Assembly: GCA_029582165.1 (NCBI GenBank)
Contig: CM055874.1
Coordinates: forward strand, 34,223,383-34,287,382
Reading direction: 5' to 3'
DNA length: 64,000 bases
Source of the DNA: Portulaca oleracea
Lineage: Eukaryota > Streptophyta > Magnoliopsida > Caryophyllales > Portulacaceae
The number at the start of each line of letters is the position of its first letter. Position 1 is the stretch's first letter. Shown here piece by piece: positions 18,666-57,800 of the stretch. The position numbers were made by a program, and so were the translations under genes. The notes under the pieces were generated by a model. The model had not been told where the DNA came from. It did not search any database and was given only the letters and a program-made list of their open reading frames with translations.

Positions 18666-18669
<4 letters not shown>

Positions 18670-21175: not shown

Positions 21176-21208
<33 letters not shown>

Positions 21209-22219: not shown

Positions 22220-22475
22220 TCATTACCCCCTTAAAAGAAGTTTCGTTCTCGAAACTTAAACTTAGACCTAACGGTTCGGTAACAATCCTAACGGTTCTGT
22301 TCTTCCTAAAACTCGAGGTTTTACATCATTATCTCCTTAAAAGAGGTTTCGTCCTCGAAACTTAAACTCCACACCAACGGTCTGCCCTACGGAACTAACG
22401 GTGGTGCTACCCAAAGATTCAGGGTTTTACATCATTACCTTCTTCAAAAGAGTTTCGTCCTCGAAACTCGACGCA
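22212..22475 (-). repeat. Three copies of the polypurine-tract/LTR-start module
   Basis: The plus strand repeats 'ggttttacatcatta' followed by a pyrimidine-rich stretch and 'tttcgtcctcgaaac' at about 22212-22260, 22317-22365 and 22424-22470, spaced 105-107 bp. On the minus strand each is a purine-rich tract followed by TGTAAAACC, the first bases of the LTR. The leftmost module is the true PPT/LTR junction. Confidence 0.85.
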
Positions 22476-22590
22476 CCTTATGTGTTGAATGTGTGGATGC
22501 CTCGATCCTATATCCTCCATGGCTTCCGAGACGGCTTCAATTGTAGCATGGCTCGTCCATCACACTCTTACTAGAGGGACGGTCTCGATC
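22476..22590 (-). pseudogene. Remnant of the chromovirus pol C-terminus
   Basis: The minus-strand translation contains TVPLVRV, WTSHATIEA and MEDIGSRHPHI, which resemble the family ending '(K)xIPLVKVLW..H..EEATWE.E..M...YP.LF' after the chromodomain region. One stop interrupts it. It supports the minus-strand orientation and Tekay/Del-type assignment; similarity was judged by eye. Confidence 0.5.
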
Positions 22591-22759
22591 TCTTCAAAGC
22601 TGCTTCTCACAGCAAACGAAATTCTCCTACAGCCGCTCCTTGTTGGTCAGGTTCTCTTTCAGCCTCCGAATTCTCATCGGAGGTCCTCTTCTGCTTCCAG
22701 ACCCTCCTCGGGGCTATATTCCGTACCCACCTTGGGTTTTCAAGTCTTTTAGAGGAGCT

Positions 22760-25620
22760 AATGCCTCATGCATAGCAAAGGCGACGATATACAATCCAAC
22801 ATATGAAAAATAAAACAATTAAGCACGCACTTACAACATATAAGAAATCCAAGAAATAGACAAACATTCCATACCCCAGAGGTATTACTTATAGTCGTTC
22901 TCACAATGAACGTCCCCAGTAGACTCAACAACTTATAGCCAATAAATCCAACTTTACCCTAATCTTCCCATTATCGATCTTCTAAAATCAAGAAATAAGA
23001 TCTTTAGAACACACCAAACTGATAATTACCAACACCCAAAATGTTATAAGATCCCAATAATCACCTCTCAAAACAAGTCTTTTGCTTCTGTGCTAGGGTA
23101 ACATAAAATAACGATAGTTTTCAATAGTTTCCCTTGATAACTCAAGTAAGACCAAAATTTCTAATTTTCCTCTAATGCAACTATACAATTTTCTTCCCTT
23201 CCAATGACGAGATCCCCATTATGTCAACCACCACAAGACTATTTAATAATATGTAACCATACGACATAACTTCCTCGAGACAACCTTATTATCCGTAAGA
23301 GAAAGAGAAATTCCCGTTAATAATCTCAAATGTCAGATCACTATCCTGGCGCCTCAAATGACACATGAACCTTATGTTTTCATCTAATAGAAAGACCAAA
23401 AGGTAAGATTGACAACCCAAGACATGATTAACACTGTAATTAATTTACCAAACCACCATTTAACTCCAAAACACTTAACCACGCCAAATGAGACTTTTCC
23501 CTTATCTTACATATGCCTAATAAAAACTAGCACTTGTCAATCATTACCCTCTCAGTCTTCTCAAATGGATTTTCGTCCCCGAAACTCAAATTACCACCCA
23601 ACACCTCAACTAAGAGTCATCCTTAGACCCGGTGCTTCCTCAAAAGCATTAATTCAACCACAATATTTCCCAAAGTCAAATTATACCCAACTGCAACTTA
23701 AAGCTTTCATGTACTTAAGCCATCAAAATCATTCTTAATCACCACTTCTATTTTAGAACCACTAGTAATGGTAATTATCAAATCCACCACGTGTTTTAAG
23801 CATAAAAAGTATAGGGACCTGTGTTAGACGATAACCTACTTCGTACATCTCGTCATTCCTCTTCCATTAACGGTAATCTCCATAACCAATATAAGTAACC
23901 AGATATGATCCAAAGATTCACGTACTCAGCTCCGCCAATATCTTAAGCACTACATACTCATTACGTCTAATTTCTTCCCTAATAGTTCTGGATAATAGAC
24001 ATCCCATCAACAGATATTGACAAATCAAAGAAAGAAATTTCTCCAATAAACATCGATAATCAAACGAACTCAGTTGGATGGTACTCAATAGATTCGATTA
24101 AATAATATTTCCACAGATTTATCAAATGTAAATAGATTATCCCAGAAAACATTCAGATAGGCCAATCAAATGATATTCATACCGAACTTAACCAGGTGGG
24201 ATTCAAACAGTATTGTGGGCATCAAATACCTGCAGCTTTCATCATGGGTTATGCGCACTTCTCAGACGATCGACTCACTTCATGTACACAATCATAAATA
24301 AAAGGCTCGCAGTAGGGAATAGACAGTTACGTACATAGACTCACATGTTTGCATATATATGGATGGTAGTAAGCATATAAGACCCTGAATCGTGATGTAC
24401 CACAGAAACTCACTTTAAACATTCAAGGGAGAAATATTAAAATCAAATAGTTACAGACCCAGTACATCTCCATCCCACAGTGAATAAGACCTTTTCAAAG
24501 TATCACTTTGTTTTTCTTAAAGATCTAATCACCCAGACAACTTCCAAACTTGTAGATAACATAATAATAGTAATTGCACCATTCCACTTCAATAACAGCG
24601 CCCTCAACCATTACATAACTAGAAAAAAGAAACCCCCTTTTTTTTTCCACCACACGTTTCCTCACATCCTTGATTCATGACCTTAATACAACTTAAGATC
24701 CCTATAATTACAATAACTTTGGAAGATTTTGCTTAGCTCAACATTACCTTAAGAGTATTCACTTACTCCAATACTCTAGGAACCAAAATTAAATTTAATC
24801 CTTAGTTCGAAGCCTCATAATAGATATCCAAAAGTCTAGTTTAAATGTACGATCATCAACAAAATATCTCAACCTTTATCTCAAAAACAAGTTCTTGTTT
24901 CCTTAAAAGTGGTCCTTGAAACTCAATACCCTGACCATAACCAATCATAATCCCAATATTACTCTGAAACCCATCATCTGCTCTAAATACTTCAAAGAAA
25001 CGATCTTCATTCAAACTTACAGGAAGTCTCCAACTTATCGTACCACCAAAAATCAAATTAACCACGAGATCAAGCACAAAACCTTCACTTCAACTACACC
25101 CCTCAACTCGAACTTTAATCAACACTTTCCTTACAAAGTTCCCTCTAACCCAAGACCTCGACTTAGAATGAATCGCGTTGAATCACAAACATTAATTTTA
25201 CCCCAAAACCAAAATTGAAATCAAATGCCAACTTCACATATGAATCTTCAAGTATTCCCCAAGTCCATAAGTCAAAGTACATTCTCAATCATCATAGTCC
25301 CTACTCCAAAACCCCATAAATACAATTTAAAGCCTTAACTAAACCCAAAGTGTTTAATAGAGATACCCAAGAGTTTCAATCGAACATAATATTCCCGAAT
25401 ACTCAACATCATACTCCACAAATAATATTAGCTTCATGCATAATACATCTTGGTACGAGAAAAGAAAAATAATGAAAACAAATATTGAAAATAAAGCACA
25501 TTAATAGAAACATGAAGAAATAGTCAAACTGATGCAACCCAACCCACACCTACACTCACACTCCGATTTTAGCTTCCTAAGGTCTAACTAAACCTAAGAG
25601 ACACTTAGGAGCTACTAGGT
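22760..25620. other. Chromovirus interior without readable genes
   Basis: AT-rich and stop-laden in all frames; no gag, protease, RT, RNase H or integrase motif was seen. The longest frames (109 codons at 23409-23738 and 100 codons at 24916-25218) show no family resemblance. It is either badly decayed coding sequence or replacement DNA, as in LARD-type elements. Confidence 0.55.
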
Positions 25621-25626
25621 CGCAAC

Positions 25627-25644
25627 CCAGAGCTCTGATACCAT
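25627..25644 (-). other. Primer-binding site (initiator tRNA-Met) of the chromovirus
   Basis: The minus strand reads TGGTATCAGAGCTCTGGG two bases inside the 5' LTR end, matching the complement of the plant initiator tRNA-Met 3' end over the usual TGGTATCAGAGC core. Confidence 0.88.
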
Positions 25645-25646
25645 TC

Positions 25647-28161
25647 TGTAACGCCCCGGAAATTTAAATATAGAAAAGTCAAAGTCAAACTATCGTTAAC
25701 AGACAAAATTAGCGGAAGACTCAAAATTCTTATGGGGCGTCACTGCCGTATCCCCGAAGGAATACAAGGCGCGAAGGAAAAACTACAACTGTCTGATAAC
25801 GGTAGACCAAACTAACAAACTCATACTTAGGAGTAAACCTCAAACTAATTTCAAGTTCCTCACAAAAGAAAGGCAACATAATCAACGACTTCTAAACATG
25901 ACGTCCTCACTTCTAATTCCCGTCCCCAGCATATAGATCTTCACCTGAAAACAAAACATTTCAAAAATGAGGCGGAAATCTCAATAATGTCTACCCCTAA
26001 TGTTAAAAACAAGTTAAGTTCATTTCAATTCATTTGAGGGAGAGGGAACGAGTCAAAACATTTCACAAACCTTTAAACCCTTAACTGTTTTCCTCAACCC
26101 AACCAATCCATATTTTATTATTATGCGGGTGGGATACCACATCCCTTAGAGTAACATCGCCTACCACAGGCATTAAGAAAGTTTGCCTACCACAGGCATC
26201 AAAGATATTCGCCTACCACAGGCATCAAGAGAGTTCGCCTACCACAGGCATCAAAGATATTCGCCTACCACAGGCATCAAAGTTCGCCTACCACAAGCAT
26301 CAAAGATATCCACTATCCTATATCAGGGAAGAAGCTCTGATCTCCTGGTCTATAACCCGGCAGGATACCAAATCCTGAACTCCGGGTTATGCCCTGAAAC
26401 CCGCTTAATGTTTCACTTTGAATTATTAGTATCTTATGCACAACTCAGCTCACAGCTCTCAAGTCAAACCCAATTCAAGTTATCAAAATCAGTTAACAAA
26501 ACTACTTACAAAAGACCATCTCAATTTCAATAACTCATAAATCAACAATTACAAACAAATATCAAAAACAGATGGCCACATTTCCACAAAAGTCCCCTTT
26601 CGGGATGTAATTCTCAAAACAAATTAGAAAACATTAAAACACATTTAAAGAGCATCCCAGTGGGGATTAGAGCATAGACATTACCTGGTTAACTTCACTT
26701 CACAGCTAAGACGAACACACTTGAGCTCACTTACAACGCGAATTAGCTCGGGCCTAAAATAAAAGTAATTATTCTAATCAAAACGCGTTCTTCGAAGTTA
26801 GTATTAACTACCTTCTACCTAACCCTCCCCTAGGAACACTATAGGTTCCTATCAATCATGGATCTATACCTTAAATCACCTAACACATTTCAAGTAATCA
26901 CATAACCAGATCAAAACATCACTTTCATACAACAACATTTTTATTAATAAAAGGCATCAACAACACAGATTACAGCATCCACATAACAAGGATCAAAACT
27001 TGACTTCCCGACATCCTATGGGTCTGGATTTGGACTTTTCGGAAACCTCGGGATGTCTACTAAAACTCTTATGTTGACGACTAAGCCCATATCAGCCTCG
27101 AAAGACTCTAAAAGTACCAAATTCTCCAACTGGTCCAGTTCCAACAGGTTCTGGTAAAATGACTATAACTCGAGCTATATAACTCCAAAGTCCGTTCCGC
27201 AAAATTCTTATGAAAGCTAGCATCTAGGGGAACCTCCAGTCCAAAGGGTTCGATCAAAGAAAAACTATACTAATCGTGGTGACCCGATCTTTAGACACTA
27301 ACAAAACTGTCCCGATCCCGGTTCTTATTTAATTCATAATTTCGGTTCTAACTTTCACCATTCGGTCCCGGGGTCCTAATTTGGGCTTAAAAACAGTAAC
27401 TAAGGTCCATGGTAATTAGGCTAATCCATCTAAGGTCCAAACATCAAACTTCCTACCATCCAAACCAAATTGTAAAATATGAAATCAACTTTAATATTTT
27501 CACTAACCCTAAAAGCATGCATGAAATAATAATAACATTATCCTAAACATGAATTCTAAAATAAACTTATTCAAGGTCCTATAATAACAACATGGAAGGG
27601 TATTAAACATGAATTTCTTAATCAATAATCAAGAAGGAACTTAAAGAACATGTGAATAAATATAAAGAACATATAAACATTTAAACTACCAATCAAGAAT
27701 TCCAACAATTAGTTTCTTTATACAAGATTCAATCAAGAATCATAATTTAATAAACAAGAATTGAAGTTTTGTAATTCAATCAACCTAACGTATCTAACAA
27801 GATTTAAACATAAAATTAAACATGAATGAAACATAAGAGAATTAAAGAACATATGAATACTTAACTAACGATTCAAGAATTAATCTAGGTAATTAAACTT
27901 TTAATTCGTGCATACAATAATAGTGTCATCTAAAACCCTAACATGATTCACAAGAAAACAAAGTACATCATACAATCGAACATTAATAATTTAATTACAA
28001 CTATTACAAACCCTAATACACCAAATTAGAACATAAAAATTACATATAATAATTTAGACAATTTACAAGTAAATACTACAACACAAGAACAAATTAATTA
28101 CAATAACAACTTAGTAAAATTTACACCCTAATTACCCAAATTACAAGATTTAAAAACAAGA

Positions 28162-28197
<36 letters not shown>

Positions 28198-29189
28198 TAT
28201 AATAATAATAATGATAATAATAGAAAAAAAAGAAACAAGAAAGGATAGTTGATAATAAAATTAGGGTTTACGTTAAAAGGGTGCTAGGGCAAAGTCTGGG
28301 CGGCGGTTTCCGGCAACTGGAGCGGCGGCGGTCAGAGGCGGCGACAACGGTGATCCGGTGGCGTCGGTGGTTGTCGAAGGGGGTGGTGGCGCGTCTCCAC
28401 GAGACAGTTGGTGGTGGTTGCGGGTTTGTGACTGGGGCAACAGCAGCGGCGGCGACCAACTTCGAGGGGCGATGGCTATGGTGGCGCAATGGTCGACCTA
28501 GGCGGCGGTGCACAGCGGCGCGGACGACGGTGGCTCAGTGGTGGCGCGGCGAATCAGAACAGAGGGAGATGGGTAAGAGAAAGAGAACAAAAGAGAGAGG
28601 TTGTGATTGAGAAAAAGAAAGGAGAGGGTGGTTGTGCGTGGTGGCGGCGATGGTGGGGTTGGGGTGGCGTGGCTGTGGAGGAAGACGGAGAGGAGGAGGG
28701 AGAGAGAGGGGAGGAGAGGAGAGGCTAGGGTTCGGGTTAATAGTAGGGTTTGGGAGGAAAAATCAAGTTTTTATACTAAACACATAATTAAGGCCCAATT
28801 AGGGTATTCTTAATCCTAATCTAACCCAATAGGAAAATCAGATTTTCTTTTGGAGAAAAATAATAATAACTATAATAATAGTAATAATAATAAAACATAC
28901 TAATAATAATAATATTAATACTAAACACATAACAAATAATATTCACATAATTATTCATATAACACATTTTAATAAACCCAATAATATTAATAGTAATACT
29001 AATAATAATTAGAGTAATACTAATAATACTAAACCCACGAAATTACCGATATACCTCATAATTCCTCAACGATCCTACGAGCTCAAGTGTTAGTAACGAT
29101 AATCACAAACGAAAATTTAACAATTAACGGAGTCAAACCTAATTTACTAACGACGTCATGGTCAATGCCTTTGAATTTTTCGGGGTTTT

Positions 29190-29192
<3 letters not shown>
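25647..29192 (-). repeat. 5' LTR of the chromovirus (3546 bp)
   Basis: Starts TGTAACGCCCCGG and ends GGGGTTTTACA on the plus strand, like 18666-22219. Differences from the other LTR are mostly single bases, variation in the 'ctaccacaggcat' repeats (26157-26311), and a small rearrangement in the G-rich block near 28665-28690. Confidence 0.95.
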
Positions 29193-35963: not shown

Positions 35964-36601
35964 TGTTGGGTGTGGAGACCAAATAGGAGAAGGAGAAGGA
36001 AGAAGGGAAAAAGGAGAGGCGCCACCAGCGCCCGGAATGGCGCCACCAGCGCCCGGAATGGCGGCACCAGCGCCTCAAGCAAAGCAAGGAAACGAAGCGA
36101 CTAGTCGACGCCAACCCAAATAATGAGCCCCGCTAGCGCCTCACAAAGCCTGGCTTGACTCACGCTACTAGCGCCAGAACCCCACCGCCCTTTGGAGTTC
36201 GCCTGCCCACAATTGACCCCCCGCCAGGGTCTTGTGGCCTTTCTACTAGCGTCTAGGTGCTGCGTGTCTTTTTTTTGGGCCAAGAATTCAGGCCCACGTG
36301 TGTTTTCTTGTGCGACAAGCTGCTCGGTATTTTTAGGTTATTGTTAACCTAGTTCCCCCTTGTTTCTTAGTATATATAGGGGTTCAGGTTCTCCCTATTA
36401 TGCATCCCTGAGATCAAGTGAGATAGAGAGAAACACAACCTTGTATTGTAATCCTCATATTACTAGTGCGTCGATTCCGTGGTTTTTTTTCCCGCTTTGG
36501 GGTTTTTTTCCACGTTAAAATCCTGGTGTCAAATTTCTTATTTCTTTCCGCTATTATTTCCTATTGTTTGTGTTTTCCTTGAGTACTCTTCGATCCTAAC
36601 A
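35964..36601 (+). repeat. 5' LTR of the copia element
   Basis: 638 bp, TG...CA. It has one extra copy of a GC-rich 'gcgccaccagcgcccggaatg' unit (36017-36080) compared with the 3' LTR, and a TATA-like tatatatagg at 36371-36380. Confidence 0.95.
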
Positions 36602-36603
36602 AC

Positions 36604-36615
36604 TGGTATCAGAGC
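36604..36615 (+). other. Primer-binding site of the copia element
   Basis: TGGTATCAGAGC two bases after the 5' LTR, complementary to the 3' end of initiator tRNA-Met, as in most plant copia elements. Confidence 0.93.
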
Positions 36616-36666
36616 TTTCAGGGTTTGTGAAAGAGAACTTACTTTCAAACAATGGCAGGAGATAAG

Positions 36667-38237
36667 TGATTAGTGCTTCTTGTATATATGAAAACTTAGT
36701 TATTTTGATGAGAATTTGGGGAATATTTGATTTGATTATATTATTTTGTACCCGAATTTCCCATATTACACTTGGTTTGGAGTTTAGTGAGTTTTGTAGG
36801 GAATTTGTGAAGAATCGATGTAAACCGAGCCAAAAATCAAGTGTAGATGCAAGTTATGAGCTTAAAGGACCAAGAAGTGAGATGTTGGATCACCCAAGGC
36901 CCAAACAATGGCCCAAAGTACTCCTAGGCCCGAAAAAAAGCAGTGACACGGGTGCCCCCAGGAAGGGCACGGGTCGTGTCTATGGCCAGAACGTGAGAAA
37001 ATGCAAGCAGTGAGCTGACACGGTCCGGGTCACAGGAGGCACGGTCAAAGTACTCCTAGGCCCGAAAAAAGCAGTGACACGGGTGCCCCCAGGAAGGGCA
37101 CGGGTCGTGTCTATGGTGAGAACGTGAGAAAATGCAAGCAGTGAGCTGACACGGTCCGTGTCACAGGAGGCACGGTCCGTGTCATAGGAGGCACGATCCG
37201 TGTCACCCCTGGCACGGTCCGTGCCTCTCCTGCCTTTTCATTTTCGGCGGTTTTGAGTTGATATTTGCCTATATTATGCTTATTTCCGGCGGAGAAGAGG
37301 AGAATCATCATTCCACCATCATCCATTTCATGCCCTAATCATATCATTCATCATCCATATTCCATTCCATCATTGAAGATTGAGAGAAGATTGAAGATCG
37401 AAGAGCAATTTGAACATAATTTGAAGTGGAGGAGCAAAAGTCCTCCATTGTTGATTCCTAGCAAGATTGTTCTTCACTTGGGTGTACTTCTCATTCTCTC
37501 ATAGATTTTCATATGCTTTCTAGAATAGATTTCAATTGCTTTGTAGTTTCAAACATGAATAGTGAGTAGTTCTTTTTAGTTTAGGGGATGAACCTTTGAA
37601 GTTGCTTGATGAATTGACTTTGTTAGATTGAATTATCATGAATTTAGTTTGTTTCAATCTATTTGGTCTTTGAATTGAATTGTTATTGCTTTTGCTTGAT
37701 CACCAATTGCAAGTTAATAGGTTGTTGGATGAAGTACCGAAAGGAGAAGTTTGATTACCCGAAAACCTAGATTAAACTAGTTAAAATTATCTAGACATAG
37801 AAGGTTTAACTAGGGTTCTTGAGATAATTAGAAATTTAACCTTGACTAAATCGAAATAACCACGAAAGTAGGTGCTTGGTTAGTCTTGGCAATTCGCTCT
37901 AGTGACAAAATATCATCATAAGTATTCTATGCGATTATCGAACCTTGATTGTGCAAATTAATGAAATGAAAGTTCAATCCACGTCGTTGATTCGTTATTT
38001 GACTTAGGTTTCATCCCCTGAACGCCTTTTTCCCTTGATTAAATCAGAAAAGTTTGTGTGAATATTAGTTTGTTTAGTTCTTGATTGTGATTAGATTTAG
38101 AATTAGTTATTTCAAACCAAAAACGGATCGACTTAGCGATCAACTAGGAGGCTAGCTCAGTGCGTTGAAAGGAAAAGTCCCTGTGGGAACGACCTTGATT
38201 TATGCTACAATTTCACCCGTGCACTTGCGGCTTATCA
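36667..38237 (+). repeat. Array LTR copy 1 (full 5' end)
   Basis: 1571 bp; the only copy with the complete TGATTAGTGCTTC start. It contains a GC-rich block (36940-37235) of repeated 'cacggtccgtgtca' words and an internal duplication of about 155 bp also found in copy 5. Confidence 0.93.
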
Positions 38238-38243
38238 TGTTTT

Positions 38244-38261
38244 TGGCGCCGTTGCCGGGGA
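38244..38261 (+). other. tRNA-Asp primer-binding site in array spacer 1
   Basis: TGGCGCCGTTGCCGGGGA, complementary to the 3' end of plant tRNA-Asp (GTC) over 18 nt. Equivalent intact sites: 39800-39817, 42930-42947, 44651-44668. At 46211-46228 one G has become A, and at 41370-41385 the site is broken by deletion. Confidence 0.9.
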
Positions 38262-38400
38262 CTTTGTCCCTAGCCAGCCACTGAACGAATACCCTAAGGT
38301 TGCCTAAGTCATTTATTTTCTGTTTTGATTTTCCTTGGTGTTTTGGTTTTTGTCTTGCCAGGTTTACTGTACGTGCATGCAAAAGGCTCCACTCTCTGAG

Positions 38401-39793
38401 TTGTATATATGAAGACTAGGTTATTTTGATGAGAATTTGGGGAATATTTGATTTGATTATATTATTTTATACCCGAATTTCCCATATTACGCTTGGTTTG
38501 GAGTTTGGTGAGTTTTGTAGGGAATTTTTGAGGAATCGATGTAAACCGAGCCAAAAATCAAGCGTAGATGCAAGTTATGAGCTTAAAGGACCAAGAAGTG
38601 AGATGTTGGATCACCCAGGGCCCAAACAATGGCCCAAAGTACTCCTAGACCTAAAAGCAAGGACACGGTGCCCTGTGAAGGGCACGGTCGTGTCTATGGC
38701 GTAACGTGAGAAAATGCAAGCGGTGAGTGACACGGTCCGGCCCGGTCATAGGAGTCCGCGGTCATAGGGGCACGGTCCGCGCTCTCCGCCTTTTCATTTT
38801 CGGCGGTTTTGAGTTGATATTTGCCTATATTATGCTTATTTCCGGCGGAGAAGAGGAGAATCATCATTCCACCATCATCCATTTCATGCCCTAATCATAT
38901 CATTCATCATCCATATTCCATTCCATCATTGAAGATTGAGAGAAGATTGAAGATCGAAGAGCAATTTGAACATACTTTGAAGTGGAGGAGCAAAAGTCCT
39001 CCATTATTGATTCCTAGCAAGATTGTTCTTCACTTGGGTTTATTTCTCATTCTCTCATAGATTTTCATATGCTTTCTAGAATAGATTTAAATTGCTTTGT
39101 AGTTTCAAACATGAATAGTGAGTAGTTCTTTTTAGTTTAGGGGATGAACCTTTGAAGTTGCTTGATGAATTGACTTTGTTGGATTGAATTATCATGAATT
39201 TAGTTTGTTTCAATCTATTCGGTCTTTGAATTGAATTGTTATTGCTTTTGCTTGATCACCAATTGCAAGTTAATAGGTTGTTGGATGAAGTACCAAAAGG
39301 AGAAGTTTGATTACCCGAAAACCTAGATTAAACTAGTTAAATTATCTAGACATAGAAGGTTTAACTAGGGTTCTTGAGATAATTAGAAATTTAACCTTGA
39401 CTAAATCGAAATAACCACGAAAGTAGGTGCTTGGTTAGTCTTGACAATTCGCTCTAGTGACAAAATCTCATTGCGAAGTATTCTATGCGATTATCGAACC
39501 TTGATTGTGCAAATTAATGAAATGAAAGTTCAATCCACGTCGTTGATTCGTTATTTGACTTAGGTTTCATCCCCTGAACGCCTTTTTCCCTTGATTAAAT
39601 CAGAAAAGTTTGTGTGAATATTAGTTTGTTTAGTTCTTGATTGTGATTAGATTTAGAATTAGTTACTTCAAACCAAAAACGGATCGACTTAGCGATCAAC
39701 TAGGAGGCTAGCTCAGTGCGTTGAAAGGAAAAGTCCTTGTGGGAACGACCTTGATTTATGCTACAATTTCACCCGTGCACTTGCGGCTTATCA
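38401..39793 (+). repeat. Array LTR copy 2
   Basis: 1393 bp, starting TTGTATATATGAA and ending GGCTTATCA. Its GC-rich block is shortened (38650-38790), losing several bases in the 'cacggtccgtg' words. Confidence 0.93.
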
Positions 39794-39956
39794 TGTTTTT
39801 GGCGCCGTTGCCGGGGACTTTGTCCCTAGCCAGCCACTGAACGAATACCCTAAGGTTGCCTAAGTCATTTATTTTCTGTTTTGATTTTCCTTGGTGTTTT
39901 GGTTTTTGTCTTGCCAGGTTTACTGTAGGTGCATGCAAAAGGCTCCACTCTCTGAG

Positions 39957-41363
39957 TTGTATATATGAAAACTAGGTTATTTTGATGAGAATTTGGGGAA
40001 TATTTGATTTGATTATATTATTTTATACCCGAATTTCCCATATTACGCTTGGTTTGGAGTTTGGTGAGTTTTGTAGGGAATTTGTGAGGAATCGATGTAA
40101 ACCGAGCCAAAAATCAAGTGTAGATGCAAGTTATGTGCTTAAAGGACCAAGAAGTGAGATGTTGGATCACCCAAGGCCCAAACAATGGCCCAAAGTACTC
40201 CCAGGCCCGAAAAAAAGCAGTGACACGGGTGCCCCCAGGAAGGGCACGGGTCGTGTCTATGGCCAGAACGTGGGAAAATGCAAGCAGTGAGCTGACACGG
40301 TCCGGGTCATAGGAGGCACGGTCCGTGTCATAGGGGGCACGGTCCGTGCCTCTCCTGTCTTTTCATTTTCGGCGGTTTTGAGTTGATATTTGCCTATATT
40401 ATGCTTATTTCCGGCGGAGAAGAGGAGAATGATCATTCCACCATCATCCATTTCATGCCCTAATCATATCATTCATCATCCATATTCCATTCCATCATTG
40501 AAGATTGAGAGAAGATTGAAGATCGAAGAGCAATTTGAACATAATTTGAAGTGGAGGAGCAAAAGTCCTCCATTGTTGATTCCTAGCAAGATTGTTCTTC
40601 ACTTGGGTGTACTTCTCATTCTCTCATAGATTTTCATATGCTTTCTAGAATAGATTTCAATTGCTTTGTAGTTTCAAACATGAATAGTGAGTTGTTCTTT
40701 TTAGTTTAGGGGATGAACCTTTGAAGTTGCTTGATGAATTGACTTTGTTGGATTGAATTATCATGAATTTAGTTTGTTTCAATCTATTCGGTCTTTGAAT
40801 TGAATTGTTATTGCTTTTGCTTGATCACCAATTGCAAGTTAATAGGTTGTTGGATGAAGTACCGAAAGGAGAAGTTTGATTACCCGAAAACCTAGATTAA
40901 ACTAGTTAAAATTATCTAGACATAGAAGGTTTAACTAGGGTTCTTGAGATAATTAGAAATTTAACCTTGACTAAATCGAAATAACCACGAAAGTAGGTGC
41001 TTGGTTAGTCTTGGCAATTCGCTCTAGTGACAAAATCTCATTGCGAAGTATTCTATGCGATTATCGAACCTTGATTGTGCAAATTAATGAAATGAAAGTT
41101 CAATCCACGTCGTTGATTCGTTATTTGACTTAGGTTTCATCCCCTGAACGCCTTTTTCCCTTGATTAAATCAGAAAAGTTTGTGTGAATATTAGTTTGTT
41201 TAGTTCTTGATTGTGATTAGATTTAGAATTAGTTACTTCAAACCAAAAACGGATCGACTTAGCGATCAACTAGGAGGCTAGCTCAGTGCGTTGAAAGGAA
41301 AAGTCCCTGTGGGAACGACCTTGATTTATGCTACAATTTCACCCGTGCACTTGCGGCTTATCA
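39957..41363 (+). repeat. Array LTR copy 3
   Basis: 1407 bp; same ends as copy 2. The spacer that follows (41364-41523) has a deletion inside the primer site. Confidence 0.93.
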
Positions 41364-41523
41364 TGTTTTTGGCGCCGCGTCGGACTTTGTCCTTACCCAG
41401 CCACTGAACGAATACCCTAAGGTTGCCTAAGTCATTTATTTTCTGTTTTGATTTTCCTTGGTGTTTTGGTTTTTGTCTTGCCAGGTTTACTGTACGTGCA
41501 TGCAAAAGGCTCCACTCTTTGAG

Positions 41524-42923
41524 TTGTATATATGAAAACTAGGTTATTTTGATGAGAATTTGGGGAATATTTGATTTGATTATATTATTTTATACCCGAA
41601 TTTCCCATATTACGCTTGGTTTGGAGTTTGGTGAGTTTTGTAGGGAATTTGTGAAGAATCGATGTAAACCGAGCCAAAAATCAAGTGTAGATGCAAGTTA
41701 TGAGCTTAAAGGACCAAGAAGTGAGATGTTGGGTCACCCAGGGCCCAAACAATGGCCCAAAGTACTCCTAGGCCCAAAAAGCGATGCACGTGCCCTGTGA
41801 AGGGCACGGGTCGTGTCTATGGCCAGAACGTGAGAAAATGCAAGCAGTGAGCTGACACGGTCCGGGTCATAGGAGGCACGGTCCGTGTCATAGGGGGCAC
41901 GGTCCGTGCCTCTCCTGTCTTTTCATTTTCGGCGGTTTTGAGTTGATATTTGCCTATATTATGCTTATTTCCGGCGGAGAAGAGGAGAATCATCATTCCA
42001 CCATCATCCATTTCATGCCCTAATCATATCATTCATCATCCATATTCCATTCCATCATTGAAGATTGAGAGAAGATTGAAGATTGAAGAGCAATTTGAAC
42101 ATACTTTGAAGTGGAGGAGCAAAAGTCCTCCATTGTTGATTCCTAGCAAGATTGTTCTTCACTTGGGTTTATTTCTCATTCTCTCATAGATTTTCATATG
42201 CTTTCTAGAATAGATTTAAATTGCTTTGTAGTTTCAAACATGAATAGTGAGTAGTTCTTTTTAGTTTAGGGGATGAACCTTTGAAGTTGCTTGATGAATT
42301 GACTTTGTTGGATTGAATTATCATGAATTTAGTTTGTTTCAATCTATTCGGTCTTTGAATTGAATTGTTATTGCTTTTGCTTGATCACCAATTGCAAGTT
42401 AATAGGTTGTTGGATGAAGTACCGAAAGGAGAAGTTTGATTACCCGAAAACCTAGATTAAACTAGTTAAAATTATCTAGACATAGAAGGTTTAACTAGGG
42501 TTCTTGAGATAATTAGAAATTTAACCTTGACTAAATCGAAATAACCACGAAAGTAGGTGCTTGGTTAGTCTTGGCAATTCGCTCTAGTGACAAAATCTCA
42601 TTGCGAAGTATTCTATGCGATTATCGAACCTTGATTGTGCAAATTAATGAAATGAAAGTTCAATCCACGTCGTTGATTCGTTATTTGACTTAGGTTTCAT
42701 CCCCTGAACGCCTTTTTCCCTTGATTAAATCAGAAAAGTTTGTGTGAATATTAGTTTGTTTAGTTCTTGATTGTGATTAGATTTAGAATTAGTTACTTCA
42801 AACCAAAAACGGATCGACTTAGCGATCAACTAGGAGGCTAGCTCAGTGCGTTGAAAGGAAAAGTCCCTGTGGGAACGACCTTGATTTATGCTACAATTTC
42901 ACCCGTGCACTTGCGGCTTATCA
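41524..42923 (+). repeat. Array LTR copy 4
   Basis: 1400 bp; same ends as copy 2, followed by a spacer with an intact primer site. Confidence 0.93.
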
Positions 42924-43086
42924 TGTTTTTGGCGCCGTTGCCGGGGACTTTGTCCCTACCCAGCCACTGAACGAATACCCTAAGGTTGCCTAAGTCATTT
43001 ATTTTCTGTTTTGATTTTCCTTGGTGTTTTGGTTTTTGTCTTGCCAGGTTTACTGTACGTGCATGCAAAAGGCTCCACTCTGTGAG

Positions 43087-44644
43087 TTGTATATATGAAA
43101 ACTAGGTTATTTTGATGAGAATTTGAGGAATATTTGATTTGATTATATTATTTTATACCCGAATTTCCCATATTACGCTTGGTTTGGAGTTTGGTGAGTT
43201 TTGTAGGGAATTTGTGAAGAATCGATGTAAACCGAGCCAAAAATCAAGTGTAGATGCAAGTTATGAGCTTAAAGGACCAAGAAGTGAGATGTTGGGTCAC
43301 CCAGGGCCCAAACAATGGCCCAAAGTACTCCTAGGCCCAAAAAAAGCAGTGACACGGGTGCCCCCAGGAAGGGCACGGGTCGTGTCTATGGCCAGAACGT
43401 GAGAAAATGCAAGCAGTGAGCTGACACGGTCCGGGTCACAGGAGGCACGGTCAAAGTACTCCTAGGCCCGAAAAAAGCAGTGACACGGGTGCCCCCAGGA
43501 AGGGCACGGGTCGTGTCTATGGTGAGAACGTGAGAAAATGCAAGCAGTGAGCTGACACGGTCCGTGTCACAGGAGGCACGGTCCGTGTCATAGGAGGCAC
43601 GATCCGTGTCACCCCTGGCACGGTCCGTGCCTCTCCTGCCTTTTCATTTTCGGCGGTTTTGAGTTGATATTTGCCTATATTATGCTTATTTCCGGCGGAG
43701 AAGAGGAGAATCATCATTCCACCATCATCCATTTCATGCCCTAATCATATCATTCATCATCCATATTCCATTCCATCATTGAAGATTGAGAGAAGATTGA
43801 AGATCGAAGAGCAATTTGAACATAATTTGAAGTGGAGGAGCAAAAGTCCTCCATTGTTGATTCCTAGCAAGATTGTTCTTCACTTGGGTTTATTTCTCAT
43901 TCTCTCATAGATTTTCATATGCTTTCTAGAATAGATTTCAATTGCTTTGTCGTTTTAAACATGAATAGTGAGTAGTTCTTTTTAGTTTAGGGGATGAACC
44001 TTTGAAGTTGCTTGATGAATTGACTTTGTTGCATTGAATTATCATGAATTTAGTTTGTTTCAATCTATTTGGTCTTTGAATTGAATTGTTATTGCTTTTG
44101 CTTGATCACCAATTGCAAGTTAATAGGTTGTTGGATGAAGTACCGAAAGGAGAAGTTTGATTACCCGAAAACCTAGATTAAACTAGTTAAAATTATCTAG
44201 ACATAGAAGGTTTAACTAGGGTTCTTGAGATAATTAGAAATTTAACCTTGACTAAATCGAAATAACCACGAAAGTAGGTGCTTGGTTAGTCTTGGCAATT
44301 CGCTCTAGTGACAAAATCTCATTGCGAAGTATTCTATGCGATTATCGAACCTTCATTGTGCAAATTAATGAAATGAAAGTTCAATCCACGTTGTTGATTC
44401 GTTATTTGACATAGGTTTCATCCCCTGAACGCCTTTTTCCCTTGATTAAATCAGAAAAGTTTGTGTGAATATTAGTTTGTTTAGTTCTTGATTGTGATTA
44501 GATTTAGAATTAGTTACTTCGAACCAAAAACGGATCGACTTAGCGATCAACTAGGAGGCTAGCTCAGTGCGTTGAAAGGAAAAGTCCCTGTGGGAACGAC
44601 CTTGATTTATGCTACAATTTCACCCGTGCACTTGCGGCTTATCA
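43087..44644 (+). repeat. Array LTR copy 5
   Basis: 1558 bp; carries the same internal duplication of the GC-rich block as copy 1 (junction 'acggtcaaagtactcc'), which shows the two copies share a more recent ancestor in that part. Confidence 0.93.
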
Positions 44645-44807
44645 TGTTTTTGGCGCCGTTGCCGGGGACTTTGTCCCTAGCCAGCCACTGAACGAATACC
44701 CTAAGGTTGCCTAAGTCATTTATTTTCTGTATTGATTTTCCTTGGTGTTTTGGTTTTTGTCTTGCCAGGTTTACTGTACGTGCATGCAAAAGGCTCAACT
44801 CTTTGAG

Positions 44808-46204
44808 TTGTATATATGAAAACTAGGTTATTTTGATGAGAATTTGGGGAATATTTGATTTGATTATATTATTTTATACCCGAATTTCCCATATTACGCT
44901 TGGTTTGGAGTTTGGTGAGTTTTGTAGGGAATTTGTGAAGAATCGATGTAAACCGAGCCAAAAATCAAGTGTAGATGCAAGTTATGAGCTTAAAGGACCA
45001 AGAAGTGAGATGTTGGATCACCCAGGGCCCAAACAATGGCCCAAAGTACTCCTAGGCCCAAAAAAAGCAGTGACACGGGTGCCCCCAGGAAGGGCACGGG
45101 TCGTGTCTATGGCCAGAACGTGAGAAAATGCAAGCAGTGAGCTGACACGGTCCGGGTCATAGGAGGCACGGTCCGTGTCATAGGGGGCACGGTCCGTGCC
45201 TCCGCTTTTCATTTTCATGGTTTTGAGTTGATATTTGCCTATATTATGCTTATTTCCGGCGGAGAAGAGGAGAATCATCATTCCACCATCATCCATTTCA
45301 TGCCCTAATCATATCATTCATCATCCATATTCCATTCCATCATTGAAGATTGAGAGAAGATTGAAGATTGAAGAGCAATTTGAACATACTTTGAAGTGGA
45401 GGAGCAAAAGTCCTCCATTGTTGATTCCTAGCAAGATTGTTCTTCACTTGGGTGTATTTCTCATTCTCTCATAGATTTTCATATGCTTTCTAGAATAGAT
45501 TTCAATTGCTTTGTAGTTTCAAACATGAATAGTGAGTTGTTCTTTTTAGTTTAGGGGATGAACCTTTGAAGTTGCTTGATGAATTGACTTTGTTGGATTG
45601 AATTATCATGAATTTAGTTTGTTTCAATCTATTCGGTCTTTGAATTGAATTGTTATTGCTTTTGCTTGATCACCAATTGCAAGTTAATAGGTTGTTGGAT
45701 GAAGTACCGAAAGGAGAAGTTTGATTACCCGAAAACCTAGATTAAACTAGTTAAAATTATCTAGACATAGAAGGTTTAACTAGGGTTCTTGAGATAATTA
45801 GAAATTTAACTCGACTAAATCGAAATAACCACGAAAGTAGGTGCTTGGTTAGTCTTGGCAATTCGCTCGTGACAAAATCTCATCATAAGTATTCTATGCG
45901 ATTATCGAACCTTGATTGTGCAAATTAATGAAATGAAAGTTCAATCCACGTCGTTGATTCGTTATTTGACTTAGGTTTCATCCCCTGAACGCCTTTTTCC
46001 CTTGATTAAATCAGAAAAGTTTGTGTGAATATTAGTTTGTTTAGTTCTTTATTGTGATTAGATTTAGAATTAGTTACTTCGAACCAAAAACGGATCGACT
46101 TAGCGATCAACTAGGAGGCTAGCTCAGTGCGTTGAAAGGAAAAGTCCCTGTGGGAACGACCTTGATTTATGCTACAATTTCACCCGTGCACTTGCGGCTT
46201 ATCA
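44808..46204 (+). repeat. Array LTR copy 6
   Basis: 1397 bp. It shares the variant 'catcataagtattct' with copy 1, while the other copies read 'cattgcgaagtattct'. The following primer site has one substitution. Confidence 0.93.
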
Positions 46205-46367
46205 TGTTTTTGGCGCCGTTGCCGGAGACTTTGTCCCTAGCCAGCCACTGAACGAATACCCTAAGGTTGCCTAAGTCATTTATTTTCTGTTTTGATTTTC
46301 CTTGGTGTTTTGGTTTTTGTCTTGCCAGGTTTACTGTACGTGCATGCAAAAGGTTCCACTCTTTGAG

Positions 46368-47794
46368 TTGTATATATGAAAACTAGGTTATTTTGATGAG
46401 AATTTGGGGAATATTTGATTTGATTATATTATTTTATACCCGAATTTCCCATATTACGCTTGGTTTGGAGTTTGGTGAGTTTTGTAGGGAATATGTGAGG
46501 AATCGATGTAAACCGAGCCAAAAATCAAGTGTAGATGCAAGTTATGAGCTTAAAGGACCAAGAAGTGAGATGTTGGATCACCCAAGGCCCAAACAATGGC
46601 CCAAAGTACTCCTAGGCTCAAAAAAAGCAGTGACACGGGTGCCCCCAGGAAGGGCACGGGTCGTGTCTATGGCCAGAACGTGAGAAAATGCAAGCAGTGA
46701 GCTGACACGGTCCGTGTTATAGGGGGCACGGTCCGTGTTATAGGGGGCACGGTCCGTGTCACCCCTGGCACGGTCCGTGCCTCTCCTGTCTTTTCATTTT
46801 CGGCGGTTTTGAGTTGATATTTGCCTATATTATGCTTATTTCCGGCGGAGAAGAGGAGAATCATCATTCCATCATCATCCATTTCATGCCCTAATCATAT
46901 CATTCATCATCCATATTCCATTCCATCATTGAAGATTGAGAGAAGATTGAAGATCCAAGAGCAATTTGAACATACTTTGAAGTGGAGGAGCAAAAGTCCT
47001 CCATTATTGATTCCTAGCAAGATTGTTCTTCACTTGGGTTTATTTCTCATTCTCTCATAGATTTTCATATGCTTTATAGAATAGATTTCAATTGCTTTGT
47101 AGTTTTAAACATGAATAGTGAGTAGTTCTTTTTAGTTTAGGGGATGAACCTTTGAAGTTGCTTGATGAATTGACTTTGTTGGATTGAATTATCATGAATT
47201 TAGTTTGTTTCAATCTATTTGGTCTTTGAATTGATTTGTTATTGCTTTTGCTTGATCACCAATTGCAAGTTAATAGGTTGTTGGATGAAGTACCGAAAGG
47301 AGAAGTTTGATTACCCAAAAACCTAGATTAAACTAGTTAAAATTATCTAGACATAGAAGGTTTAACTATGGTTCTTGAGATAATTAGAACTTTAACGTTG
47401 ACTAAATCGAAATAACCACGAAAGTAGGTGCTTGGTTAGTCTTGGCAATTCGCTCTAGTGACAAAATCTCATTGCGAAGTATTCTATGCGATTATCGAAC
47501 CTTGATTGTGCAAATTAATGAAATAAAAGTTCAATCCACGTCGTTGATTCGTTATTTGACTTAGGTTTCATCCTCTGAACGCCTTTTTCCCTTGATTAAA
47601 TTAGAAAAGTTTGTGTGAATATTAGTTTGTTTAGTTCTTGATTGTGATTAGATTTAGAATTAGTTACTTCAAACCAAAAACGGATCGACTTAGCGATCAA
47701 CTAGGAGGCTAGCTTAGTGCGTTGAAATGAAAAGTCCCTATGGGAACGACCTTGATTTATGCTACAATTTCACCCGTGCACTTGCGGCTTATCA
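46368..47794 (+). repeat. Array LTR copy 7 (terminal)
   Basis: 1427 bp; its end GGCTTATCA abuts the second ATAAG target duplication, so this is the true 3' end of the insertion. Confidence 0.93.
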
Positions 47795-48560
47795 ATAAGT
47801 ATGAAATAGAGAAATTTGATGGATCTGACTTCATCTACTGGAAGTTGCAGACTGAGGATCTGCTGTATGCAATGTCGCTGCATGTTCCACTGCTGGATAA
47901 GTCAGATGAGTTGAAGCAGACTGAATACGATCTGCTGTTTCGACAGGCGATTTCCCTAATCTGGATGTCATTGGCTCGGAACGTCATGTTTAACGTCATG
48001 GAGAAAAAGACAACGAAGGAATAGCTGAAGGCACTAGAGAATATGTATGAGAAGCCTAGTGCAGCAAATCAGGTATATTTGTTCACTAAATTAACCAGCT
48101 GTAAGATGGCTGAAGGTGGGGATGTGGCTAATCATATTAATAAGATTACTAAAATTTTATCGCAACTTGCTTCAGTAAAGATGGCTTTTCCTGAGAATGT
48201 TAGAGCTTGCGTATTATTATCTTCTATGCCTGAGTCTTGGAGAACCCTTGTAACTTCTTTTAGTAGTGCTAAGGATACTAACGAGATAAAATTTGATGAT
48301 GTCAAGTCTGTATTGCTTAATGAGGGTCTTCGCAGGAAGAATTCTGGTGAGGAATCTTCGGGAATTGCGCTAAGTGTCAGGGGTAGGAAGAACAATAGGA
48401 ATTCGAACAATTCCAGGGGAGGCAGGCCTAGGGACATGAGCAATGTTGTGTGTTATGGTTGTGGGGATAAGGGTCACTTTAAGAGGAATTGCCCTAGACC
48501 TGGGAAGGGGAAGGGTAATGATGACCGGGACTCACAACTCGCGAAGATCTTTGTGAAGCC

Positions 48561-49466
48561 TTGGTCTTGAGTGTGTCTAGCCCTGAAGAGTCTTGGATAG
48601 TTGATACCGGCGCATCCTTTCATGTTTCTTCAAACAAGGAGTTATTTCATAATTTCAGGAGTGTGAATTTTGGCAAGGTGTATCTTGCCAATGACAAGTG
48701 TTGTGAGATAACAGGTACAAGAGACGTGACGATTAAGACTGCTAATGGTAGTCTTTGGAAGTTGGAGGATGTGAGGTATATTCCTGGAATTAGGAGGAAT
48801 TTAATTTCAGTGAATCAACTCGATGAGATGGGCTACACTGCAGGCTTCGGGAAAGGGATGTGGAAGATCATGAAGGATGCTATGGTAGTGGCGAAGGGAT
48901 TGAGATCCAGTACGTTGTACTCTACCGGGGAAAGCACTAACATGATTTCTTATGCTTCTTGTTCTAGTTTATGGCTTTGCAGGAATGAGAAGAGGGTCAG
49001 TTTCACCAAAATTGACAGGGAAACTGAGGAGGTATGGAGTGACTCAGGTGACAAGAAGCCAGTGGGAGCTGTGGCGGTCAAGGTTTCTCGTAGGCTGGGT
49101 GTGCCTAGGGAGGAAACGGAGGAACCACAGGAAGCTCCACAGGTTGCAGATCAGGTTGTTGAAGAACCTGAACCACAGGAGCTAGGTGAAAGCTCCAGCG
49201 CACCATCTAATGTGAGAAGATCCAGGAGGGCTACCAGAGATGCTGGGAAGCCAAAGACCTACAGGAAGGCTGTGCAGGCGGAGGCTCGGTTCAAGTGGGA
49301 GCATGCAATGGTTGATGAGATCGCGTCACTTGAGGGAACCTGGAAGCCGGTGAGATTGTCTGCGGGGAAGAAGGCCAGGAAGAAGTGGGTCTATAGGATC
49401 AAGGGTAAGTCAGTGGATGTTGGGAAATTGAGGCACGTAGCGGTCTCAGGAGGCCTCTCGGACTGA
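48561..49466 (+). pseudogene. copia protease region fused to hinge and RT N-terminus (integrase and most RT deleted)
   Basis: An open frame of 301 codons. It begins with the aspartic protease (SWIVDTGASFHVSS; DTG at 48603-48611), runs through the usual GAG-pre-integrase-like stretch (EDVRYIPGIRRNLISVNQLD), then jumps to a Pro/Glu-rich hinge (PQEAPQVADQVVEEPEPQE) and the first part of RT (RFKWEHAMVDEIASLEGTW, KKARKKWVYRIKGK). The integrase HHCC and DDE motifs and the RT catalytic motif are missing. The stop at 49464-49466 lies about 80 bp before the 3' LTR. The frame joins pieces normally about 3 kb apart, so internal deletions created it. In copia elements this polyprotein is about 1300 residues. 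Confidence 0.85.
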
Positions 49467-49545
49467 TGAAGGGGCCGGTCGATGCACTAGGGGAACTTGT
49501 GGTGAAAGTTGAGGATGGTTGAGGTTTGGTCTCCAAGTGGGATAT

Positions 49546-50162
49546 TGTTGGGTGTGGAGACCAAATAGGAGAAGGAGAAGGAAGAAGGGAAAAAGGAGAG
49601 GCGCCACCAGCGCCCGGAATGGCGCCACCAGCGCCTCAAGCAAAGCAAGGAAACGAAGCGACTAGTCGACGCCAAGAATGCCTAACGAGCCCCCGCTAGC
49701 CTCTCACAAGAGCATGGCTTGACTCACGCTACTAGCGCCAGAACCCCACCGCCCTTCATGAGTTCGCCCCGCCAAAGATCACCGTGGTCTTGTGGCCTTT
49801 CTACTAGCGTCTAGGTACTGCGTGTCTTTTTTTTTTTGGGCCAAGAATTCAGGCCCACGTGTGTGTTTCTTGTGCGGCAAGCTGCTCGGTATTTTTAGGT
49901 TATTGTTAACCTAGTTCCCCCTTGTTTCCTAGTATATATAGGGGTTCAGGTTCTCCCTATTATGCATCCCTGAGATCAAGTGAGATAGAGAGAAACACAA
50001 CCTTGTATTGTAATCCTCATATTACTAGTGCATCGATTCCGTGGTTTTTTTTCCCGCTTTTGGTTTTTTCCACGTTAAAATCCTGGTGTCAAATTTCTTA
50101 TTTCTTTTCCGCTATTATTTCTTATTGTTTGTGTTTTGCTTGAGTACTCTTCGATCCTAACA
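49546..50162 (+). repeat. 3' LTR of the copia element
   Basis: 617 bp, TGTTGGG...CTAACA, clearly similar to 35964-36601 but with several differences in the GC-rich part (49680-49800). Confidence 0.95.
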
Positions 50163-52740: not shown

Positions 52741-53441
52741 CTAAAGTATGTTCCCTCTAGCCGATTCACTCGCTCCATTGTAGAATGACTGGATTGGAAC
52801 CCACGGCTCGAATCCATGCTGAGGACATTGACGGAGGAGGTCTTTGAATCTCTCCCAAGCTTCGTAGAATGTCTCATCAGGATCTTGGACGAACGTCGAG
52901 ATCTGATTTCTCAGACTGGTTAGCTTATTGGGAGGGAAGTATTTCGCTAGAAACATGCTAGTGAGCTGATTGAATGTGGCGATTGAATTGGGTGGAAACG
53001 AGTCGAACCACTCCCATGATTTTCCTTCTAGAGATAACATAAATAGCCTCAGTTTGATTGTGTCTTCCGATAAGTTGTTCGCTTTGAATGTGTCCCATGC
53101 TTGGCAGAAGATGCGCATGTGACAGTTTGGATCTTCACTCGGATGTACATGGAATGGTGCTTTGGACACCAAGTTGATCAGAGATTACCGCAATTCGAAG
53201 TCGTTCGCTGCAACACCGGGATAGCGATGGCGGACTGAGGGTTAGTGACATTGGGTGTCACATACTGTCCCAGTGTTCGTTGTGGTTCGGCCATCTCTTC
53301 TTCTTCGTGTCTAGCTTCCTCTTCTTCTTGCTTTTCTCTTTCCAGTCTTTGTTGTTTCCTTCTTTCTCGCAGAGTGCGTTCGATCTCGCGGTCGAAATCG
53401 TCTTGCATAAACCTGAAAAAGAGCAAAAACAAGAATACCAA
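52741..53441 (-). pseudogene. Athila-like gag, N-terminal and main domain
   Basis: Two pieces. 53441-53178 gives a Glu/Arg-rich start (DDFDREIERTLRERRKQQRL) and MAEPQRTLGQYVTPNV, the typical Athila gag beginning. 53172-52741 gives the retrotransposon gag domain: PSEDPNCHMRIFCQ, IKLRLFMLSLEGKSWEWFDS, FLAKYFPPNK, FYEAWERFKDLLRQCPQHGF. A frameshift near 53175 and stops between the pieces inactivate it. It lies just downstream (minus strand) of the primer site at 53535-53552. Confidence 0.88.
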
Positions 53442-56929: not shown

Positions 56930-57800
56930 AGAATTAACCTGAGCACATGTTTGGGACTGTGAAGCAAGCAGTTGTTGTTGGGATGTAATCATGTTTTCAA
57001 GTGAAGCGAACCTAGCCTCATAACTTGCGCTCTCAGCAATAGCATGTACACCCCCCTAGCATTGGACAATTGGGCACCTGATGACTCATCCCTAGTCGTA
57101 TCCCACTGCTTTGTTCTCTCAACCATGGTTCCTAGGAATTCCTAGGCCTCATCTACAGTTTTATTCAAAAATCCTCCCTGACATATTGATTCTAACATTA
57201 CCCTAGTTGATTGGTCGACACCCTCATACACAAGTTGACACAGACGAGACATATCAAAACCATGGTGAGGAAATTAGGACATTAAGTTCTTAAACCTCTC
57301 AAAGGCTTTCAAGTATGACCTTCTCCTCCCTCTTGTCTAAATTTCAAAATTGCATTTCTAAGTTGCACAACCAAAGAGTTAGGAAAGTTTTCATGAAAAT
57401 CTTTAGAAAACTGTCTCAAGAAGTAATGGACCTAGGTTGGTATGCTATACATCCACTACTTAGAAACATCCTTAAGAGAAAAGGGTAGGCATTTTAGGAG
57501 CACATAGTCAAGTGGGACTCTCGGAGGGGTCACCATGCTCATGTATTCCTTATACTCTGTAATCCATAATAAAGCTATCCATGGACTAGTAAAGAATGGT
57601 AGGTTCTGGGTATGGTAATGTCTGGAGTCAAAGGTCACTCCAGCAAGAAGTGTAGGTAACACAAAATAAGAAGGTGGGGGATCATAGGATGGATACAGTT
57701 GGCCATTAAGAGTCACTCTACATGCTTCTCCCGCCATATCTACAGGTGGGTTGGCTGAGGGTTCCTCTTTTCTAACTAGTCCGTTGGACACTGTTTTCAT
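56930..57800 (-). pseudogene. Athila/Ty3-type gag remnant
   Basis: On the minus strand from 57800: a 114-codon piece ending PLDYVLLKCLPFSLKDVSK, the '(D)AIRLRLFPFSLKDKAK' gag motif, then frames reading WMYSIPT, KDFHENFP, LRNAILKF, QFPHHGFDMSRLCQLVYEG and DQSTRVMLES, all typical of this gag, and finally AIAESASYEARFASLENMI. Several frameshifts and stops. Upstream (minus strand) lies LTR-like sequence. Confidence 0.65.

Follow-up and report, generated by a model that had tools for sequence, protein, structure and literature searches.

How can a locus consist of seven long terminal repeats (LTRs) of a retrotransposon and carry the target duplication of a single insertion? This question was examined in a window of 64,000 nt from Portulaca oleracea (CM055874.1:34,223,383-34,287,382, forward strand), and all coordinates below are positions in this window. 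An earlier note on this DNA had described an LTR array at 36667-47794 and had offered two routes to it, amplification at the locus or integration of a multimer of LTR and leader. The best explanation, which we regard as quite probable, is that a Ty3 element of a lineage we take to be Athila-like integrated once, lost its internal region by deletion and then grew in place, with conversion between its units.

The plus strand of 36667-47794 is wholly filled by seven direct LTR copies (1.39-1.57 kb) and six spacers (160-163 bp), so there is no reverse transcriptase within it. LTR 1 (36667-38237) is the sole LTR with an intact 5' end, TGATTAGTGCTTC; LTR 2 (38401-39793), LTR 3 (39957-41363), LTR 4 (41524-42923), LTR 5 (43087-44644), LTR 6 (44808-46204) and LTR 7 (46368-47794) all start at LTR position 14. 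Counted from that position, the lengths of LTRs 1-7 are 1558, 1393, 1407, 1400, 1558, 1397 and 1427 bp. Spacers 1-6 lie at 38238-38400, 39794-39956, 41364-41523, 42924-43086, 44645-44807 and 46205-46367, and measure 163, 163, 160, 163, 163 and 163 bp. When spacer 1 was read by eye against the minus strand around 53562-53380, it was divided into a primer-site-like stretch, a leader, a possible 3' splice site and a putative gag start, after which the junction follows. The primer-site-like stretch, which presumably pairs with tRNA-Asp, stands directly 3' of the LTR and has equal length in five of the six spacers, with one change in spacer 6; in spacer 3, which is 3 bp shorter, this region is rearranged. 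The outer ends of the array are TGATTAG...CTTATCA, and ATAAG is present on either side on the plus strand (36662-36666 and 47795-47799).

All six internal junctions represent the same fusion, in which a leader ending with TGAG is joined to LTR position 14 (TTGTATATATGA); a 21-bp pattern of this junction, seen for example at 38392-38412, has six occurrences in the window and none in 100 shuffles. Each of the six internal LTRs lacks the first 13 bp, i.e. the terminal TG and 11 further bases, and no polypurine tract is visible in any of the six leaders, whose longest purine run is 6 nt. The leaders contain an ATG after a CAG, and its frame, which crosses the junction, gives MQKAPLSEL or close variants. 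These residues appear to be the first codons of gag: a degenerate Ty3 element on the minus strand matches, at 53619-53475 and with 75% identity, the stretch 38175-38321, which comprises the LTR end and the beginning of the leader, and the leader of that element, read by eye, passes via CAG to an ATG that opens a gag-like frame. The junction and leader gave no match in viral contigs or in prokaryote genome contigs, a result that is uninformative for a plant. The earlier note had listed seven LTRs and six spacers of about 160 bp between TG...CA ends and a single ATAAG duplication, and both the coordinates and the alignment agree with this list, except that the six internal LTRs are incomplete. 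It had also found the fusion of leader to LTR position 14 identical throughout, as we did at 6/6 junctions, and the occurrence of one junction type supports its view that an aberrant junction formed once and was later multiplied.

The array lies in a copia element, which spans 35964-50162 with ATACC at both ends. Its 5' LTR (35964-36601, plus strand) is directly preceded by ATACC and its 3' LTR (49546-50162, plus strand) is followed by the same 5 bp; the two LTRs differ at 28 of 608 aligned positions. The left ATAAG of the array stands within the first part of the copia gag. Without the array and one copy of ATAAG, the flanks read MAGDKYEIEKFDGSDFIYWKLQTEDLLYAMSL... and the frame is open over the 72 residues examined; this rejoined frame represents the beginning of a copia-type gag, of which a later portion (48025-48567) matches Retrotran_gag_2 (E 3.9e-22). 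Because only one ATAAG duplication is present, the outer LTR ends are intact and the rejoined gag frame is open, the array rests on one normal insertion, and the conclusion that one insertion event underlies it is supported. Nested independent insertions of seven elements were also considered and were ruled out, since no internal junction has a target duplication or an intact LTR start. The remaining gag and pol fragment of the host copia (47800-49466, plus strand; Retrotran_gag_2, zf-CCHC, Pol_BBD) has a stop in gag just before 48025, and a scan of two reading frames gave only gag and pol-fragment domains between the host LTRs; the host copia itself was therefore probably defective already.

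The order of events after this insertion can be approached from the ends of the LTRs. Ty3 elements canonically generate the left end of their 5' LTR when the plus strand is primed from the polypurine tract. Because the left end of LTR 1 is intact, the founding element had such a tract, and because none is visible at any of the six junctions, the junction is unlikely to have passed through canonical reverse transcription. The simplest order is thus a normal integration followed by a deletion of everything between the gag start and LTR position 14. According to this scheme, a Ty3 element, presumably Athila-like, integrated once, in the normal manner, near the start of the resident copia gag. A deletion in the integrated DNA would then have cut the leader just inside the putative start of gag and fused it to the 3' LTR at position 14; the single junction type suggests that this step removed gag-pol together with the polypurine tract and the first 13 bp of the 3' LTR. 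The remnant, LTR-leader~LTR, most likely expanded in place to seven LTRs via mispaired exchange or double-strand-break repair, for which LTRs of sister chromatids or homologues could have served as partners, and the variant pattern described below suggests that the units have kept exchanging tracts.

The same ends bear on the mobility of the units. The earlier note had proposed that each unit could be a self-amplifying non-autonomous form, and this proposal is not supported, because an intact 5' LTR end and a visible polypurine tract do not occur together in any unit. With no tract and without the first 13 bp of the LTR, an internal unit could not prime the plus strand or remake its 5' end in the canonical cycle. 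The array is now a non-autonomous and probably immobile tandem repeat, i.e. an incipient satellite-like array. Another possibility is that a non-autonomous LTR-leader~LTR family carrying this junction was present earlier and was moved via an autonomous relative, so that only the expansion was local. Short non-autonomous elements, the terminal-repeat retrotransposons in miniature (TRIMs), do transpose, some of them with up to seven LTRs (PMC4528315; here and below, statements on published systems refer to parts of the reports cited). We nevertheless think this origin very unlikely, since the junction carries neither a visible polypurine tract nor the first 13 bp of the LTR, both of which the canonical cycle needs to regenerate the left end of LTR 1.

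We next consider the variation among the units, on which growth in place with continuing exchange largely depends. The 21 unit pairs differ at 19-53 aligned sites (1.36-3.82%, all aligned columns), plus at least one gap each. Such arrays are hard to assemble, and one might therefore suspect that the assembler had expanded or collapsed a shorter array; however, every unit pair differs, so the units are not one sequence duplicated by the assembler, they are individually recognisable and the flanks join cleanly, and we give an assembly artefact almost no weight. There are 23 informative sites or site clusters, each common to two or three units; of the 253 pairs that they form, 115 fail the four-gamete test, which means that the units have exchanged tracts. 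A 131-bp internal duplication is confined to LTR 1 (36914-37177) and LTR 5 (43321-43583). In these same regions, short repeats built on GGCACGGTCCGTGTCA vary in number among the units. LTR 2 has many private changes in its short-repeat region, possibly by conversion from another copy or through alignment error.

The 131-bp duplication shared by LTRs 1 and 5 led us to consider a higher-order duplication, in which LTRs 1-3 were copied as the block 5-7, and this was not supported. When all columns are used, LTRs 1 and 5 are mutually closest (1.48%) and LTR 3 is closest to LTR 7 (2.20%), but the pair 2-6 (3.04%) is the closest for neither member. When repeat-rich columns are excluded, the three pairs differ at 1.88% (1-5), 1.47% (2-6) and 1.96% (3-7), and none is the closest partnership. 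A block duplication of this kind may have been blurred by later exchange.

Growth in place makes a prediction about position. In a mispaired LTR-LTR exchange, each new middle LTR takes its left part from the old 3' LTR and its right part from the old 5' LTR, so the outer edges would be the oldest; only the left end of LTR 1 and the right end of LTR 7 would still be as old as the insertion. Over the first 131 alignment columns, the divergence of LTR 1 from the other LTRs is 4.3%, compared with 1.0% within LTRs 2-7; over columns 1086-1563, the divergence of LTR 7 from the other LTRs is 2.7%, compared with 1.1% within LTRs 1-6. These column limits were chosen by eye, and more weight should be given to a test in which the LTR was divided into equal quarters with repeat-rich columns excluded, which left 1222 columns. 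In this test, 11 private changes fall in the two predicted corners, where 3.6 are expected (P 0.0003); this is the top value among 49 pairs of units, and the opposite corners hold 3. With repeat-rich columns excluded, LTR 7 has the most private changes, which increase toward its right end. The shared variants, the incompatible site pairs and the excess of private changes at the outer edges fit growth in place.

The main competitor is a multimeric LTR-leader DNA that was made first, by read-through, template switching or from an LTR-leader circle, was integrated whole and was later homogenised in part by conversion. The one target duplication that encloses the whole array speaks for it, and template switching or read-through of a one-LTR circle has been proposed for Cassandra (PMC7215508) and for tandem elements of rice (PMC11899658), where it was not excluded. 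The junctions do not favour it, because they are without a visible polypurine tract and without 13 bp of the LTR end, and the intact outer left end needs a normal plus-strand start somewhere. Simulations of simultaneous origin and of growth by unequal exchange were compared with 400 runs per setting. In a first set, conversion models were more divergent than the array; in a second set, divergence was matched, and growth with conversion and sparing of the edges were added.

Simultaneous origin without exchange gave, in the first set, a mean of 0.5 shared sites against 16 observed. At least 11 corner changes were reached there in 42-68% of runs with growth by unequal exchange and in 2.0-3.7% of runs with simultaneous origin and conversion. 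In the matched set, the same level was reached in 53% of runs with growth, in 20% with growth and 15 conversions and in 43% when the edges were spared in the latter; simultaneous origin gave 0 and 0% with 20 or 60 conversions, and 1.8 and 1.5% even with the outer quarters spared. The pre-formed multimer fares better in site incompatibility: the observed value of 0.50 is nearer to simultaneous origin with conversion (means 0.33-0.41) than to growth alone (0.11-0.13), and growth with conversion gave 0.33-0.34. Joint criteria were also applied, namely at least 11 corner and at most 3 anti-corner changes, at least 10 shared sites and an incompatibility of at least 0.35; growth reached them in no more than 10.5% of its runs, and simultaneous origin in no more than 0.7%. 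Growth with continuing conversion is the best among the models tried, and none fits closely. We consider a multimer made first and homogenised later to be improbable. The more specific form, in which a multimer from a rolling circle or concatenated reverse transcription was integrated as a seven-LTR unit and the same junction occurs elsewhere as a mobile multimer, seems to us a rather remote prospect. With regard to the two routes of the earlier note, amplification at the locus therefore fits better with the junction, the variants, the edges and the simulations, and integration of the multimer as one element is not supported.

Several points weigh against growth in place after a deletion. The deletion and any microhomology are not directly readable, and the parental element was not found. 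Divergence between units does not clearly rise with their separation along the array: for lags of 1-6 it is 1.50, 1.30, 1.53, 1.77, 1.71 and 2.61% in the LTRs, and the spacers are trendless. The private changes of LTR 7 number 2, 2, 5 and 6 by quarter, so that the excess extends beyond the right quarter, and the edge test was devised after the per-unit private counts had been seen. The settings of the simulations were picked by hand, no setting satisfies the joint criteria often, and on incompatibility alone simultaneous origin with conversion fits better than growth alone.

Arrays of this kind have been described in other plants, and the array combines known features in a presumably Athila-like element; both the kind of structure and the model of growth are already in print. 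In maize, CRM1TR and CRM4TR are tandem repeats composed of LTR and untranslated region (UTR) only, and their authors proposed that an LTR-UTR~LTR remnant arose by deletion and was amplified by gene conversion, with unequal exchange and rolling circles not excluded (PMC3648361). The Portulaca array resembles them in that its monomer is the LTR plus the adjacent leader or UTR of a Ty3 element, with a characteristic UTR~LTR junction between monomers; recombinant monomers, short internal repeats that vary in number (at CRM1TR locus II) and a proposed origin by deletion with subsequent gene conversion are also common to both (PMC3648361). Its monomers of LTR and leader, the non-canonical junction shared at 6/6 sites and the exchange between units (115/253) place it with this kind. 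CRM1TR differs in scale and preservation, since 187 full-length monomers were extracted from it and it is pericentromeric with partial LTRs (PMC3648361), whereas the present array has seven nearly complete LTRs of a presumably Athila-like element and keeps its outer ends and target duplication, so that the founding insertion is readable.

Two other groups are comparable. In rice, LTR retrotransposons are reported to occur often as tandems that share LTRs and have a single target duplication; 89% of the rice candidates are Ty3/gypsy, and such tandems are also present in other plants. Whether they grow in place or by tandem insertion was left open (PMC11899658). The likeness lies in the one-orientation alternation of LTR and internal segment, with an LTR at both ends and a 5-bp target duplication; of the 28 rice tandems selected, 10 have a perfect one (PMC11899658). 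Those 28 keep coding regions for retrotransposon domains, and the two loci treated in detail each have three LTRs (PMC11899658); the present array, in contrast, has seven LTRs, and its internal region is cut to a 160-bp leader that holds no coding domain.

The other group is that of the TRIMs, whose LTRs are short, a few hundred bp. Among these, maize Wukong has 89 intact elements, of which 15 carry three to seven LTRs (PMC4528315), and arrays of Cassandra with up to about 13 LTRs were detected by inverse PCR (PMC7215508). They share with the present array multiple LTRs with short non-coding internal segments between them (PMC4528315, PMC7215508). The internal segment of a TRIM has a primer site and a polypurine tract, whereas that of the array is without a visible tract and the LTR start is damaged; LTRs of 1.39-1.57 kb and a longest purine run of 6 nt in the six spacers also set the array apart from TRIMs. 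Among the matches listed from open-licence articles in PMC, no title or start of abstract names an Athila LTR-leader array, which is no proof of absence. The locus keeps the founding insertion, the single founding junction and the early exchanges readable in one place; the array may be turning into a satellite repeat, and it offers a tidy test case for tandem arrays arising from retrotransposons.

Relative ages can be given in outline. At 1.3e-8 substitutions/site/year, a rate for grasses whose fit here is doubtful, an age of about 1.0-1.7 million years would follow for the edges (2.7-4.3%), while the interior (about 1.0-1.1%) would be about 0.4 million years old and the host copia (4.6%) about 1.8 million years. 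Only the order is worth keeping: the host copia came first, then the insertion, and most interior stretches are younger.

Other features of the window are as follows. A second large element, flanked by (TA)n, occupies 18666-29192, with 3.55-kb LTR-like repeats that are 97.9% identical (TGTAAC...TTTACA); no listed frame between the repeats is longer than 115 aa. By eye, a primer site that we take to be initiator-tRNA-like stands beside the right repeat on the minus strand, and the whole is presumably a large non-coding element similar to a large retrotransposon derivative (LARD). The Rfam family snoR71 matches at 52811-52917 (plus strand, 73.9 bits) and 57257-57365 (plus strand, 44 bits), both antisense to Ty3 gag-like sequence; on the opposite strand, one frame is open at the former and stops occur in all three frames at the latter. 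The Rfam snoR71 family may describe in part a retrotransposon gag and not a snoRNA. At 62783-63919 on the minus strand, there is a reading frame for a MYB-like transcription factor, which makes a Caryophyllales plant the probable source of the window: its best match, at 59% identity across 35% of the query, is from Carnegiea gigantea, and among its ten hits, six of the eight matches with a species name are from plants that we assign to Caryophyllales.

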